From: Acidobacteriota bacterium
GTDB lineage: Bacteria > Acidobacteriota > Terriglobia > Bryobacterales > Bryobacteraceae
Assembly: GCA_016870915.1 (NCBI GenBank)
Contig: VFZY01000001.1
Coordinates: 1-64,000 of the forward strand
DNA length: 64,000 bases
Reading direction: 5' to 3'
How positions within the stretch are numbered: the stretch's first letter is position 1; each line of letters opens with the position of its first letter. The notes under the pieces were generated by a model. That model was given only the letters and a program-made list of their open reading frames with translations. It searched no databases and was not told the origin of the DNA. Shown here in pieces: positions 17,465-21,123 of the stretch. The position numbers and the translations under genes are program-made.

Positions 17465-17967
17465 ATGCGAGCCTTGAAGAAGTGGTGATTGTCGATCGCG
17501 AGAATCGCGTCACCGGCCAGGCAACACGAGGCGAGATGCGGGCGCGTGGCCTGATTCACCGGGCGACGTATATCCTAGTTTTCAACTCCGCGGGGCAAAT
17601 TTTCGTTCAACACCGGACGATGACCAAGGATGTTTACCCCGGCTATCTGGACCCGGTGACCGGTGGCGTGGTGTTGGCTGGTGAGAGCTATGAGGAGTCG
17701 GCTGAACGCGAGTTGGCGGAAGAGATCGGGGTGCGGGGCGTCGAGATCGCCCGCCACGGCGACTTCTACTTCGAGAGCGAGGCGCCGGTTTGGGGGGCGC
17801 TCTTCAGTTGCACCTGGGATGGGCCGCTGGTGTATCAGCCCGAAGAGGTGGCCGGTGGCGAGTGGATGAATCCCGAAGAGGCCCTGGCGCGAGCCGGAAC
17901 GGAGAACTTCACCCCGGATGGTCTGGTGGCGGTGAGGCTCTGGTTGGAGCGGTACCGTCAGCGGTAG
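17461..17967 (+). CDS. Nudix hydrolase, YfcD/IDI-like
   Basis: A 168-residue protein. An N-terminal EVVIVDRENRVTGQATRGEMRARGLIHRATYILVFNSAGQIFVQHRT resembles the YfcD and isopentenyl-diphosphate isomerase-like branch. The Nudix box GGVVLAGESYEESAERELAEEIGV (about 67-90) is complete: G, E five residues on, and RELAEEIG. ATG 17461 overlaps the stop of the binding-protein gene (ATGA), suggesting translational coupling. Pairing a Nudix enzyme with an NMT1-type binding protein could point to salvage of a phosphorylated cofactor precursor, but that is inference. Its 3' end overlaps the convergent PPC gene by 10 bp. Confidence 0.88.
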   Translation: MNASLEEVVIVDRENRVTGQATRGEMRARGLIHRATYILVFNSAGQIFVQHRTMTKDVYPGYLDPVTGGVVLAGESYEESAERELAEEIGVRGVEIARHGDFYFESEAPVWGALFSCTWDGPLVYQPEEVAGGEWMNPEEALARAGTENFTPDGLVAVRLWLERYRQR

Positions 17968-18512
17968 GTCTTGTCGTCGAGCCTGGTGAGATCGGCGTTA
18001 TCGTCGAGGATGCCAAGCGTGACGATGGCAAAGGTGAAAACGTTCGTGCCTGGCTCGATGTGGCCGCCGAACGCCCGGTGTTCATCGGCCATGGTCATGT
18101 GAGCGTGAATCTTGCCGTTCATGACGTAGCCGTTGATGCTGATGATATCGGCGGGTGTGGACGGGTCCTTCAAGTAGACGTTCTTCGAAGGAAAGGTCCG
18201 GTTGCTCACCGAGTGGATGTGATAGTTGCGCACGGATCCGACGCCGCTCAGGAAGACAGCGTTCTTGATCTTGTGCTGCTTGACCATCTGCTCCAGGCCC
18301 GCGAGCAGGTCCGCCTGGTATTTGAAGCGCAGAATCACCACGCGCTTGATGTCGGCGGCCACGGCGTAGACATCGGGAACCGCGGCGGAGTTGGGTTTGG
18401 CGTCATCGGCGGGCGTGGTGGCCTTGGTAATCTCGGTGCGCGTGACCTGGGCGGAGACAGAGGCGGCGCAAAGCAGGGTGGCGCAAAGCAGGGTGGCAAT
18501 GAGAGTGTGCAC
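17958..18512 (-). CDS. Secreted PPC-domain (DUF296) protein
   Basis: A 184-residue protein starting at GTG 18512. The signal peptide contains a duplicated ATLLC motif produced by a 15-bp tandem repeat. The mature part has a DUF296/PPC fold: RVVILRFKYQADLLAGLEQMVKQHKIKNAVFLSGVGSVRNYHIHSV ... INGYVMNGKIHAHMTMADEHRAFGGHIEPGTNVFTFAIVTLG. The HxHxTM...H...GGH pattern is the metal-binding site of bacterial PPC proteins. Most PPC proteins are cytosolic or AT-hook fused, so an exported one is less common. Last gene of a probable three-gene minus-strand operon. Confidence 0.8.
   Translation of the reverse strand: MHTLIATLLCATLLCAASVSAQVTRTEITKATTPADDAKPNSAAVPDVYAVAADIKRVVILRFKYQADLLAGLEQMVKQHKIKNAVFLSGVGSVRNYHIHSVSNRTFPSKNVYLKDPSTPADIISINGYVMNGKIHAHMTMADEHRAFGGHIEPGTNVFTFAIVTLGILDDNADLTRLDDKTYR
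18465..18497 (-). repeat. 15-bp tandem duplication inside a signal peptide
   Basis: GGCGCAAAGCAGGGT occurs at 18465-18479 and again at 18480-18494 with no mismatch, and the next three bases continue the unit. On the coding strand it yields ATLLC-ATLLC-A in the hydrophobic core of the PPC protein's signal peptide. The length is a multiple of three, so the frame is kept. This looks like a recent slippage duplication. Confidence 0.85.
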
Positions 18513-18521
18513 GATTTTCAG

Positions 18522-19436
18522 TTAGACCTTGTCGATCACTTTGAGCAGGGCGGTGAGGGACGTGCGGCTGGCATGAGCTTTGCCGAGCGGGCTCTTGTAG
18601 TGGGTTTCAAGGGTAAAGGTACCGCGATAGCCGGCCTTGAGCAGGTCGCGGATCTGGCCCAGGTTGTCCATTTCGCCTTCCCCGACGGCGGTCCAGTCGC
18701 CTTTTTGACCATTAGCGGCTTTGCGGTAATCGCGCAGATGGACGTGAATGATTCTGGCCGGATCCAGCTTGCGGTAGCCGTCGGGGTAAGCCTGTTCGCC
18801 GGAGAGGCCGGCGTTGTTGGGATCCCACGTCAGGCCGAGCGCCGGATGCTGCACGGCCTTCAGCAGATTGGCGGCCTCGGCGCCGGTGGATACATAGCTG
18901 CTGCCGACGTTTTCAAGAGCCAGTTGGAAGCCGCGTTCACCGGCCATGCGGGCCGCCTGCGCGACCAGTTCGTAGATGCGAGGGTAGTGCTTCGGATCGG
19001 CGGCGCTGCCCTGGTAGGTGAAGGCAAAGGTGCGGATCCTGGTGGTGCCCATGATCTTGGCGCGTTCAAACGCCGAGTTCAGCAGCGCCCATTGATTGTC
19101 GAGTGTGGCCCGGCCTTCGGGAGTCTCCATGGGCAGCGGAATCTTGAAAAACGCGGTGCCGAGCGTGGAAGTCTGGATCTTGTGCGCATCGAAGATGCCC
19201 CGCAGTTCATGGATCTTTTCCAGTGGCTGCGCGGTATTGTACTTGCCCCAGACGTTGCGGATCTCAGCCCAGTTCAGGTTGAACTCGCGGAGAAACTTCG
19301 CGGCCGCCGCGGGGTCGTCATCGATCTCATCGGTGGTGACTCCGAGTTTGATCCGGTCGAGCGGCAGCGCGGCCAGGGGCACAGCGGCGGCGGAGGCGAG
19401 CCAGCGGCGGCGGGTGATGGAAACCATGGCTGTCAT
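18522..19436 (-). CDS. Secreted sugar phosphate isomerase/epimerase-like TIM-barrel protein
   Basis: A 304-residue protein with a twin-arginine-like leader (ITRRRWLASAAAVPLAALPL). The rest is an AP-endonuclease-2/xylose-isomerase-like TIM barrel: IKLGVTTDEIDDDPAAAAKFLREFNLNWAEIRN, ERGFQLALENVGSSYVSTGAEAANLLKAV, LTWDPNNAGLSG, IIHVHLRDYRK and a C-terminal YRGTFTLETHYKSP. The Glu, Asp and His of the metal site are in ALEN, TWDPNN and HVHLRD. The ATG at 19436 begins one base after the TAA of the upstream gene, which suggests coupling; a second Met at 19427 is possible. The substrate is unknown, probably an exported sugar or polyol. Confidence 0.82.
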   Translation of the reverse strand: MTAMVSITRRRWLASAAAVPLAALPLDRIKLGVTTDEIDDDPAAAAKFLREFNLNWAEIRNVWGKYNTAQPLEKIHELRGIFDAHKIQTSTLGTAFFKIPLPMETPEGRATLDNQWALLNSAFERAKIMGTTRIRTFAFTYQGSAADPKHYPRIYELVAQAARMAGERGFQLALENVGSSYVSTGAEAANLLKAVQHPALGLTWDPNNAGLSGEQAYPDGYRKLDPARIIHVHLRDYRKAANGQKGDWTAVGEGEMDNLGQIRDLLKAGYRGTFTLETHYKSPLGKAHASRTSLTALLKVIDKV

Positions 19437-19437
19437 T

Positions 19438-21123
19438 TTATCTCGCCCCGCCGGCCAGCAGGAGCCGCTCGGCCAGCAGCAGGGCGTCACAGGTCCAATA
19501 CTCGCGCGGGCGCGGGGCGGGGGTTCCGGGCACGGGGCGCCGCGTCAGCACGTCAATTCTCCACGCGAATGGAATGGCTGCGCGTCCATGGACGGCGCCA
19601 AGCAGGCCGCCGGCAACCGCCGCGTTAATCCCCACCTGCCCCCCGGATTCAAGCGTTGCGCTGACGCCGGCTTCGAACGAGTGGGCCGCGAGCAGCCGGT
19701 GAAATGCGTTGTGTAACGCGACCAGAACCCAATCCGGCTTCGTTTCGAAATCGCGCGGCGGGCCGGCTTCGGCCGAAAGCAGAAGACGCTTGAGCAGACG
19801 TGCGCGCGAAACCGCATGTTCAAAGACCTGACGGGGGCCAGCGCCTGTCCGCACGGCAAACGCCACGGCGGCGGCCAGGACGGCGCTTGCCTCCTGGCAG
19901 TGGGCATGCGGGTGGGTGATGGCGGCGTCCAGCCTGGCGCACTCGTCCAGGTGGTCATCCGTGACCTGCGAACCCCAAACGCCCAGGGCAACGGCCCGAA
20001 TGAGGGCGGAACTGTCTTCGCTGGCGGAAAGCTTGGCGCCGCCGCCGAGAGCGGATTTGAGGGCCGCGCCGGGATCGGATGGATTCGAAGCAAGCCAGGC
20101 GCGATAGGCGGCGATGACAGGCAGAGGTTCGAAGGCCTCATGGTCGGCGAGACAGCGCGCCAGGCCGGTGGCGAGTTCAGCGGGTGGAGCGCCGGACAAG
20201 GCCGCGCCAAGCAGGGCTCCCTGGGCTCTTGACAGGCATTCCGGCCGGGCGATCTTGCGGTCCCGGACGGGAACCGCCAGAACGTGGTTGCGCCGGTCAG
20301 GCGGCGGGAGCGGGGTGTTGGGCGGGTCCAGCTTGAAGCTGGCCAGATGCCGGATGAGCGGAGGTGGCCCGGCCAGGCAACGGCCCTCGCATTCGCCGCT
20401 GCCATCGCGGCCATAGGCCACAGGGCGTGCACTGCCGTCCACCAGATCGGCTCCGGCGCTTCGCAGAAGGGCGTGACCGGCCGCGATGTCCCAGGCGGAA
20501 AGCGTGTGGATGGAGGTGGTGGCGTCACCTTCACCGGCGGCCACCAGCGCCAGGCGGTAGGCGATGCTGGGCAGGCAGAGGTAGCGCATCGGGGCCAGGC
20601 GGGTGACCGTGATTTCGGCGCGGCGATCACCGTGTTGCGAAACCAGGAGCAGCGTACTGGAATCCACCGCATCGGGCCAGACGCGGCTTACGGGTTGGCC
20701 GTTGCGATGGACAGGACCTTGCCCTTCCGCCCAGGTGATGAGATCGCCGGAATCATCGGGGGCGGCGTAGGCGAAGACGACGCCAAGCACGGGTTGACCT
20801 TCGCGAAGCAGGGCGATGGAAACCGCGGCGCCACGATAGCCGCGGAAGAAGCCGCTGGTGCCGTCATTCGGATCGACCAGCCAGCAGTGGCCCGCGGGAT
20901 CGCGTACGGCGGCGCGCAAGCCACGCTCCTCGCCACGGAAACCGTAGCCGGGGAACGCGGCGTTGAGGGCTGCGAAGATGCCGTCTTCGGCCTCTCCATC
21001 CGCGTCGGCTTTGTGAGCGGTCCCTCGCGGACCGCCTGGGCGATAAAACTCGCCCAGCAGCAACGCTCCGGCCTCGCGCGCGGCGCTAATGGCGGAATCC
21101 AACTGTGCGGAATAATCGAACAC
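19438..21123 (-). CDS. Fusion: inositol monophosphatase-family domain + degenerate ADP-ribosylglycohydrolase-like domain
   Basis: A 561-residue two-domain protein. Residues about 5-265 are an IMPase/CysQ-family phosphatase with all metal motifs: GFRGEERG (about 62), WLVDPNDGTSGFFRG (about 80) and SAWDIAAGHALL (about 208). Residues about 290-555 resemble an ADP-ribosylglycohydrolase: LSRAQGALLGAALSGA, THPHAHCQEASAVLAAAVAFA, and GGQVGINAAVAGGLLGAVHGRAAIP. In active enzymes the last block carries GGDxDTN and an N-terminal TDDT; neither acidic cluster is present here (QVGIN replaces it). The first domain should be an active sugar/nucleotide phosphatase, whereas the second is probably non-catalytic. 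GTG 21123 has AAGGA upstream. First gene of a three-gene operon. Confidence 0.78.
   Translation of the reverse strand: MFDYSAQLDSAISAAREAGALLLGEFYRPGGPRGTAHKADADGEAEDGIFAALNAAFPGYGFRGEERGLRAAVRDPAGHCWLVDPNDGTSGFFRGYRGAAVSIALLREGQPVLGVVFAYAAPDDSGDLITWAEGQGPVHRNGQPVSRVWPDAVDSSTLLLVSQHGDRRAEITVTRLAPMRYLCLPSIAYRLALVAAGEGDATTSIHTLSAWDIAAGHALLRSAGADLVDGSARPVAYGRDGSGECEGRCLAGPPPLIRHLASFKLDPPNTPLPPPDRRNHVLAVPVRDRKIARPECLSRAQGALLGAALSGAPPAELATGLARCLADHEAFEPLPVIAAYRAWLASNPSDPGAALKSALGGGAKLSASEDSSALIRAVALGVWGSQVTDDHLDECARLDAAITHPHAHCQEASAVLAAAVAFAVRTGAGPRQVFEHAVSRARLLKRLLLSAEAGPPRDFETKPDWVLVALHNAFHRLLAAHSFEAGVSATLESGGQVGINAAVAGGLLGAVHGRAAIPFAWRIDVLTRRPVPGTPAPRPREYWTCDALLLAERLLLAGGAR

Follow-up and report, generated by a model that had tools for sequence, protein, structure and literature searches.

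The two-domain gene examined here probably descends from a bifunctional fused enzyme, a phosphatase joined to an ADP-ribosylglycohydrolase (ARH), whose ARH half has decayed in this lineage and left the phosphatase. It lies in the window, by which we mean the whole 64,000-nucleotide stretch of DNA analysed, and its features are listed in Table 1.

Fusion of a phosphatase to a degenerate ARH

The open reading frame begins with a GTG start, and its coordinates agree with those of an earlier note made from the sequence alone, which had described a phosphatase fused to an ARH. The fusion was confirmed by the Pfam matches to Inositol_P (PF00459; 115 bits, gathering score 27) and ADP_ribosyl_GH (PF03747; 81 bits, gathering score 26.2), the latter spanning positions 54-285 of the 287 in the profile. 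We take GEE, DPxDGT and WD in the phosphatase, and TDD[ST] and GGDxDT in the ARH, to be the metal-ligand motifs. All three phosphatase motifs of the IMPase/CysQ superfamily occur in the window protein (GEE, DPNDGT, WDIAAG), complete as the note had read them. CysQ was the top NCBIfam phosphatase model for this protein, with every equivalog cut-off missed (CysQ TIGR01331, 75.4 bits against a curated cut-off of 228.8; the equivalog for DraG, dinitrogenase reductase-activating glycohydrolase, TIGR02662, 39.6 bits against 337). Six relatives scored 125-145 bits against the DraG equivalog (cut-off 337), and CysQ was the top phosphatase model, again below cut-off, for five of them; the sixth, G029, whose phosphatase is dead, matched none. 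Best-scoring though below its cut-off, CysQ points to nucleotide rather than inositol substrates.

The C-terminal domain is of the ARH fold and of no unrelated fold, as judged from the Pfam match and from the match of the family ARH profile to DraG 3g9d (E 2.6e-43, nearly whole length), in which the family TDDSE aligns with DraG TDDTE and GGDTDT with GGDADT. A direct search of DraG structures with the window protein alone gave a weak match (E 0.0017 to 2woc). A single-protein structure prediction of the window protein, with a mean pLDDT of 34.7, was set aside as evidence.

Table 1 Features of the fused gene and of the two genes that follow it, in window coordinates
Feature	Position	Strand	Basis
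Two-domain gene, 561 aa: IMPase/CysQ-type phosphatase + degenerate ARH	19438..21123	-	ORF, Pfam
Inositol_P (IMPase/CysQ-like) domain, residues 11-239	20407..21093	-	Pfam E 5.8e-33
GEE motif, residues 64-66, intact	20926..20934	-	
DPNDGT motif, residues 84-89, intact	20857..20874	-	
WDIAAG motif, residues 211-216, intact	20476..20493	-	
ADP_ribosyl_GH match, residues 317-518	19570..20175	-	Pfam E 1.6e-22
Junction of the 36-residue gap, residues 307/308 (G027 has LAGDALGSLVEF...GGSWN there)	20200..20205	-	Alignment
GGQVGIN, residues 494-500, replacing the metal-binding GGDTDTN	19624..19644	-	Alignment to relatives
Xylose-isomerase-like TIM barrel gene, starting 1 bp past the stop of the fusion	18522..19436	-	Pfam
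PCC/PPC-domain gene (PF03479), after the isomerase gene	17958..18512	-	Pfam

Loss of the ARH catalytic clusters, also claimed in the note, was borne out by alignment to intact fused relatives. The window ARH is without 36 residues, an in-frame gap, that bear the GDALG..VEF motif, and has a 2-residue gap at the end of the TDD motif, where it reads PP--AEL; GGQVGIN stands at the second metal site. This leaves it without the TDD[ST] and GGDxDT metal motifs, and every ARH motif in our active-site table is altered except THPH, which is retained, as is much of the C-terminal third. Both the domain matches and the alignment to intact relatives, residue by residue, far exceed chance, and the window ARH half is a homologue by descent whose site is gone, and no active member.

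The threshold for a conserved ARH position was conservation in 90% or more of 31 intact ARHs. Of these positions, the window ARH keeps 5/18 catalytic ones and 48/74 others (48/63 with gaps excluded), whereas the six intact-ARH fusions listed in this retention test keep 18/18 and about 92-99%. In the same test the window phosphatase half retains 10/10 catalytic and 39/40 other conserved positions. Catalytic positions were thus preferentially lost in the window ARH, yet the remainder has eroded too. G+C by codon position follows one pattern in the two halves, with close values of 0.766, 0.570 and 0.736 in the ARH half and 0.745, 0.565 and 0.733 in the phosphatase half. The chance of the 265 ARH codons staying open is 0.05 or 0.008 under two base-composition models, so that an open frame by itself counts for little. 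Taken together, the open frame, the normal codon-position composition and the ungapped non-catalytic positions kept argue that the dead ARH is not freely drifting, through either recent decay or some remaining constraint. This pattern of conservation would suit either a loss of fairly recent date or a remnant under weak constraint and is no proof of function. No close orthologue of the window gene was found in the 121 near genomes, where the best fused relative shares 50% identity over the phosphatase half.

Distribution, active sites and evolutionary rates of the fusion family

The earlier note had proposed a search for the same two-domain architecture. The first search, of 121 near genomes, turned up fusions in five genomes other than that of the window (G026, G027, G028, G029 and G055). 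A profile built from these six fusions and run on 237 genomes of the window's taxonomic family matched 19 genomes at E 1e-40. Thirteen of the 237 carry fusions, namely the window and the five above plus G140, G170, G191, G193, G197, G220 and G221; stand-alone ARHs occur in five of the 19 matched genomes (G056, G178, G179, G217, G264) and a stand-alone phosphatase in one (G177). At the phylum level, 17/396 genomes, the window among them, matched at E 1e-60. This included six more fusions (G308, G347, G349, G501, G620 and G324, the last ending at a contig end), nine ARH-only matches (several at contig ends) and a phosphatase part at a contig end (G609). The G193 gene is split between its halves by a frameshift and that of G620 is frameshifted in the ARH, and in draft assemblies such frameshifts may be errors. 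Two ARH genes of different types adjoin in G264 (convergent) and G499 (tandem).

Four of 176 matching plasmid records span at least 80% of the fused query, all proteobacterial: Azospirillum brasilense, A. ramasamyi, Rhodobacter sp. CZR27 and Pseudomonas luteola. Annotation exists for three of these, each called 'inositol monophosphatase family protein', and is absent from the A. brasilense stretch. A phage origin was rejected, with no fused relative in 50,697 phage records and none confirmed in viral contigs; 19 phage records match, all 19 over the ARH half and none spanning 80% of the query. A further scan of genome contigs yielded two haloarchaeal stretches only. The fusion family is scattered, very patchy and little studied; neither a description nor biochemistry of an IMPase-ARH fusion was found in the open-access literature searched.

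Active sites were tallied in the 21 fusions scorable in both halves, which leaves out G324 and G609 (contig end), G620 (ARH frameshift), G177 (phosphatase only) and the stand-alone ARHs. Small variants that keep the acidic residues we take to be metal ligands were scored as intact; examples are SEE and GEDTDTN (G140), DVHDGT (A. ramasamyi) and HDVAGA (P. luteola). Both sites were intact in 14 fusions, the ARH was altered in three (window, G347, G028) and the phosphatase in four (G026, G029, G221, G170). Both halves were altered in none, where about 0.6 would be expected among the 21, so the absence of double loss is not significant and could be chance. In G347, the Glu of VEF is gone and the ARH motifs read SADTEL and GGDTDHN; G028 has TDAS, and its GGDADTN is also seen in an otherwise intact stand-alone ARH. 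Among the phosphatases, G029 has GRE and DVSRGT, G221 has GAA and HPLDSP, and both are without WD; in G026, GEE is deleted and AAHDGR replaces the second motif, and loss of WD is the sole change in G170. The dead phosphatase of G221 retains 37/40 non-catalytic conserved positions and is a cleaner pseudoenzyme profile than the window ARH. The note had built its reading of the architecture on the dead ARH; that reading is not supported, as ARH metal sites are intact in the fused relatives G027, G055, G191, G197, G220 and others. Its idea of a regulatory ARH likewise fails at the family level, where in some relatives it is the phosphatase site that is gone.

To compare rates, trees of each half were built from the same 21 fusions and the mean path to the 14 intact references was taken. 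The ratio of ARH to phosphatase path length averaged 0.77 in the intact references (sd 0.11, range 0.51-0.97), compared to 1.53 in the window, and was 0.36 and 0.48 in the dead-phosphatase fusions G026 and G029. Inside the intact range were G221 (0.57), which also has a dead phosphatase, G170 (0.79), G347 (0.97) and G028 (0.94); the last two sit at its edge, and their partial degeneration is weaker evidence. In larger trees of each half, the window phosphatase has an ordinary end branch (0.48; tree median 0.43), and the window ARH has one of 1.89 changes per column (median 0.41), the sole ARH branch flagged as long. The sole phosphatase branch so flagged was that of G026 (2.76). Since the tree positions of such long rows are unsure, we base the statement on path lengths and not on branching order: in the clear cases (window, G026, G029), the dead half is the fast-evolving half. 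Alignments and trees thus establish that the two domains are fused, that most relatives have both sites intact, that one half or the other has been lost in particular lineages and that, in the clear cases, the halves evolve at unequal rates.

Gene neighbourhoods and other ARH genes

The isomerase and PPC genes downstream of the window fusion had been read in the note as one operon with it, and this unit is not conserved. An isomerase is found at E 1e-30 in 152/237 family genomes, with up to 73% identity, and is strongly conserved; in the 19 other loci fetched, neither a PPC/PCC gene nor a fusion lies within 1.5 kb of it. With the isomerase widespread without the fusion and its partners absent nearby, the window operon is a local arrangement, and we rejected the idea that the fusion, the isomerase and the PPC/PCC gene form a conserved pathway. 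The window gene also has two plain NUDIX genes 1.5-5 kb away, outside its operon.

The neighbour set comprised 111 genes no more than three genes from 19 fused loci, of which 72, plus 24 of the other 39, were scanned; all tallies are raw counts without a random-locus control. No Pfam family recurred in more than two of the 72 scanned neighbour proteins. An all-against-all comparison of 223 neighbour genes placed AAA ATPases from six loci in one group, with every other group confined to two loci, and most chromosomal copies have unrelated neighbours. An AAA ATPase adjoins the fusion or lies close to it in G140 and in three members of one clade, G220, G221 and G029. Nudix genes are directly downstream of the fusion in Rhodobacter and in G308. 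WYL regulators occur in three of the four plasmid loci, which also hold TM0106-type and restriction-like nucleases. The A. brasilense plasmid locus has two calcineurin-like phosphoesterases, a WYL regulator and further ARH-like frames; these frames (L077:3112-5286 and 19376-19825) flank the fused gene within 20 kb. In G191, the fusion is followed directly downstream by a sigma-54/CARF RtcR-type regulator (PADLOC RtcR_PspF2, E 2.6e-127) and ARPP-1 (E 5.7e-90), a row spanning L102:6607-11314, and its close relative G193 has the same gene sizes there. RNA damage signals might control the fusion in this row.

A second ARH-like protein is encoded in the window's genome (contig 235, L117:1457-3031), in a 525 aa open frame, probably exported, with the motifs VDDDWYYE and GGDFTDADCN. 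PF03747 frames of similar size (518-536 aa) occur in several relatives. Redundancy as the cause of the ARH loss was rejected, as the contig 235 ARH is of a different, probably secreted type. It also fails elsewhere, since G177 is without any ARH and G191 has only the fused one.

Proposed activity, rival explanations and known systems

For the substrates, the sequential chemistry and the phosphatase activity of the window protein, we infer the following from sequence. In intact members, the C-terminal ARH half would cleave by hydrolysis an ADP-ribosyl bond, be it on a macromolecule or on a small molecule, freeing ADP-ribose or a derivative. The N-terminal metal-dependent CysQ/IMPase-type half would then take a phosphate off the released nucleotide or sugar product, or may alternatively act on a related bisphosphorylated nucleotide. 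Along the lineage of the window, deletion removed the first ARH metal motif and substitution the second, and the ARH half now evolves fast, while the phosphatase half has an ordinary rate and all its motifs. Only the phosphatase step should remain, and the window protein is most likely a phosphatase alone.

Three other explanations were weighed against decay of the ARH half. The first is a pseudoenzyme regulator: the dead ARH would still tune the phosphatase, by binding ADP-ribose or a nucleotide, as the earlier note had suggested, or by contact. This agrees with the fold-level conservation (48/63 ungapped non-catalytic positions kept vs 13/18 catalytic lost), with the open frame of normal codon composition and with the existence of dead ARHs that have biological roles, such as vertebrate Adprhl1, as described in PMC7390403. 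However, the window ARH, at 1.89 changes per column vs a median of 0.41, evolves far faster than any other ARH in the set, and such a rate sits poorly with strong conservation of a regulatory domain. Both metal motifs and adjoining residues are gone, making a surviving ADP-ribose pocket unlikely, and a dead ARH is not common to the relatives, most of which are intact while others lose the phosphatase instead. Overall we consider regulation unlikely; a lineage-specific regulatory role for the window's dead half is possible, though not favoured.

Decay may instead extend to the whole gene, the phosphatase having become dispensable after the ARH loss and the open frame being a leftover. We regard this as improbable. 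The patchy distribution (19/237 family genomes with any member), the frameshifts in G193 (between halves) and G620 (in the ARH) and the non-negligible chance of an open ARH part (0.05 by one model) would suit it, but the window phosphatase keeps 10/10 catalytic and 39/40 other positions on an ordinary branch, and the draft-assembly frameshifts may be errors. A metal-independent or rewired activity of the window ARH on an ADP-ribose derivative seems very improbable: THPH and much of the C-terminal third are kept, but both acidic clusters of intact relatives and DraG are absent.

Decay of the ARH half thus remains our preferred explanation, under which the window gene alone matters less, as one decayed member. 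More broadly, ADP-ribose removal and phosphate removal appear coupled in one polypeptide, with each half knocked out separately in related species, and these separate natural losses are ready comparisons for the role of each half and for whether a dead domain still matters. Should the dead halves still serve as structural or sensing partners, which we rate as improbable, the pseudoenzymes of the family would be mutually exclusive: some species would use a dead ARH to tune a live phosphatase, others a dead phosphatase (e.g. G221) to tune a live ARH.

Like CysQ/IMPase phosphatases, the window protein has the full GEE, DPxDGT and WD motifs; unlike them, it is fused to an ARH. Intact family members carry the TDD and GGDxDT metal motifs of DraG but, unlike DraG, are fused to a phosphatase, and the window copy is without the metal motifs. 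The vertebrate dead ARH Adprhl1 (ARH2) is presumably not fused to a phosphatase. The window ARH is a pseudo-ARH as Adprhl1 is, but its loss is lineage-specific, whereas Adprhl1 is described as expressed in the heart of all vertebrates (PMC7390403).

Systems centred on an ARG (ARH) are predicted to undo viral ADP-ribosylation, and in PMC9503650 itself protection from phage ADP-ribosylation is a prediction. According to its main text, a phosphatase is in the same polypeptide or adjacent in a little over 55% of ARG systems, the types named being rhodanese-, calcineurin-, HD- and HAD-type; other associates are Nudix or WYL regulators, chaperones, REases and ARPP. The word 'inositol' is absent from that main text, to which the check was confined. 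Unlike these systems as described there (PMC9503650), the fusion family has an IMPase/CysQ-type phosphatase, and the window operon is without those partners and its ARH is dead. Like them, the family couples an ARH and a phosphatase in one polypeptide, with the window ARG inactive. WYL/Nudix genes, calcineurin-like phosphoesterases, AAA ATPases, restriction-like nucleases and ARPP-1 lie near some fused relatives, though not near most chromosomal copies. That IMPase-ARH fusions are an undescribed phosphatase variant of ADP-ribose-countering conflict systems, with either half repeatedly lost and the other kept, is a speculative proposal that we rate as improbable. Set against the main text of PMC9503650, the IMPase-ARH fusion fits ARG systems as a further phosphatase variant, and the family widens the set of ARH-coupled phosphatases in predicted ADP-ribose conflict systems.
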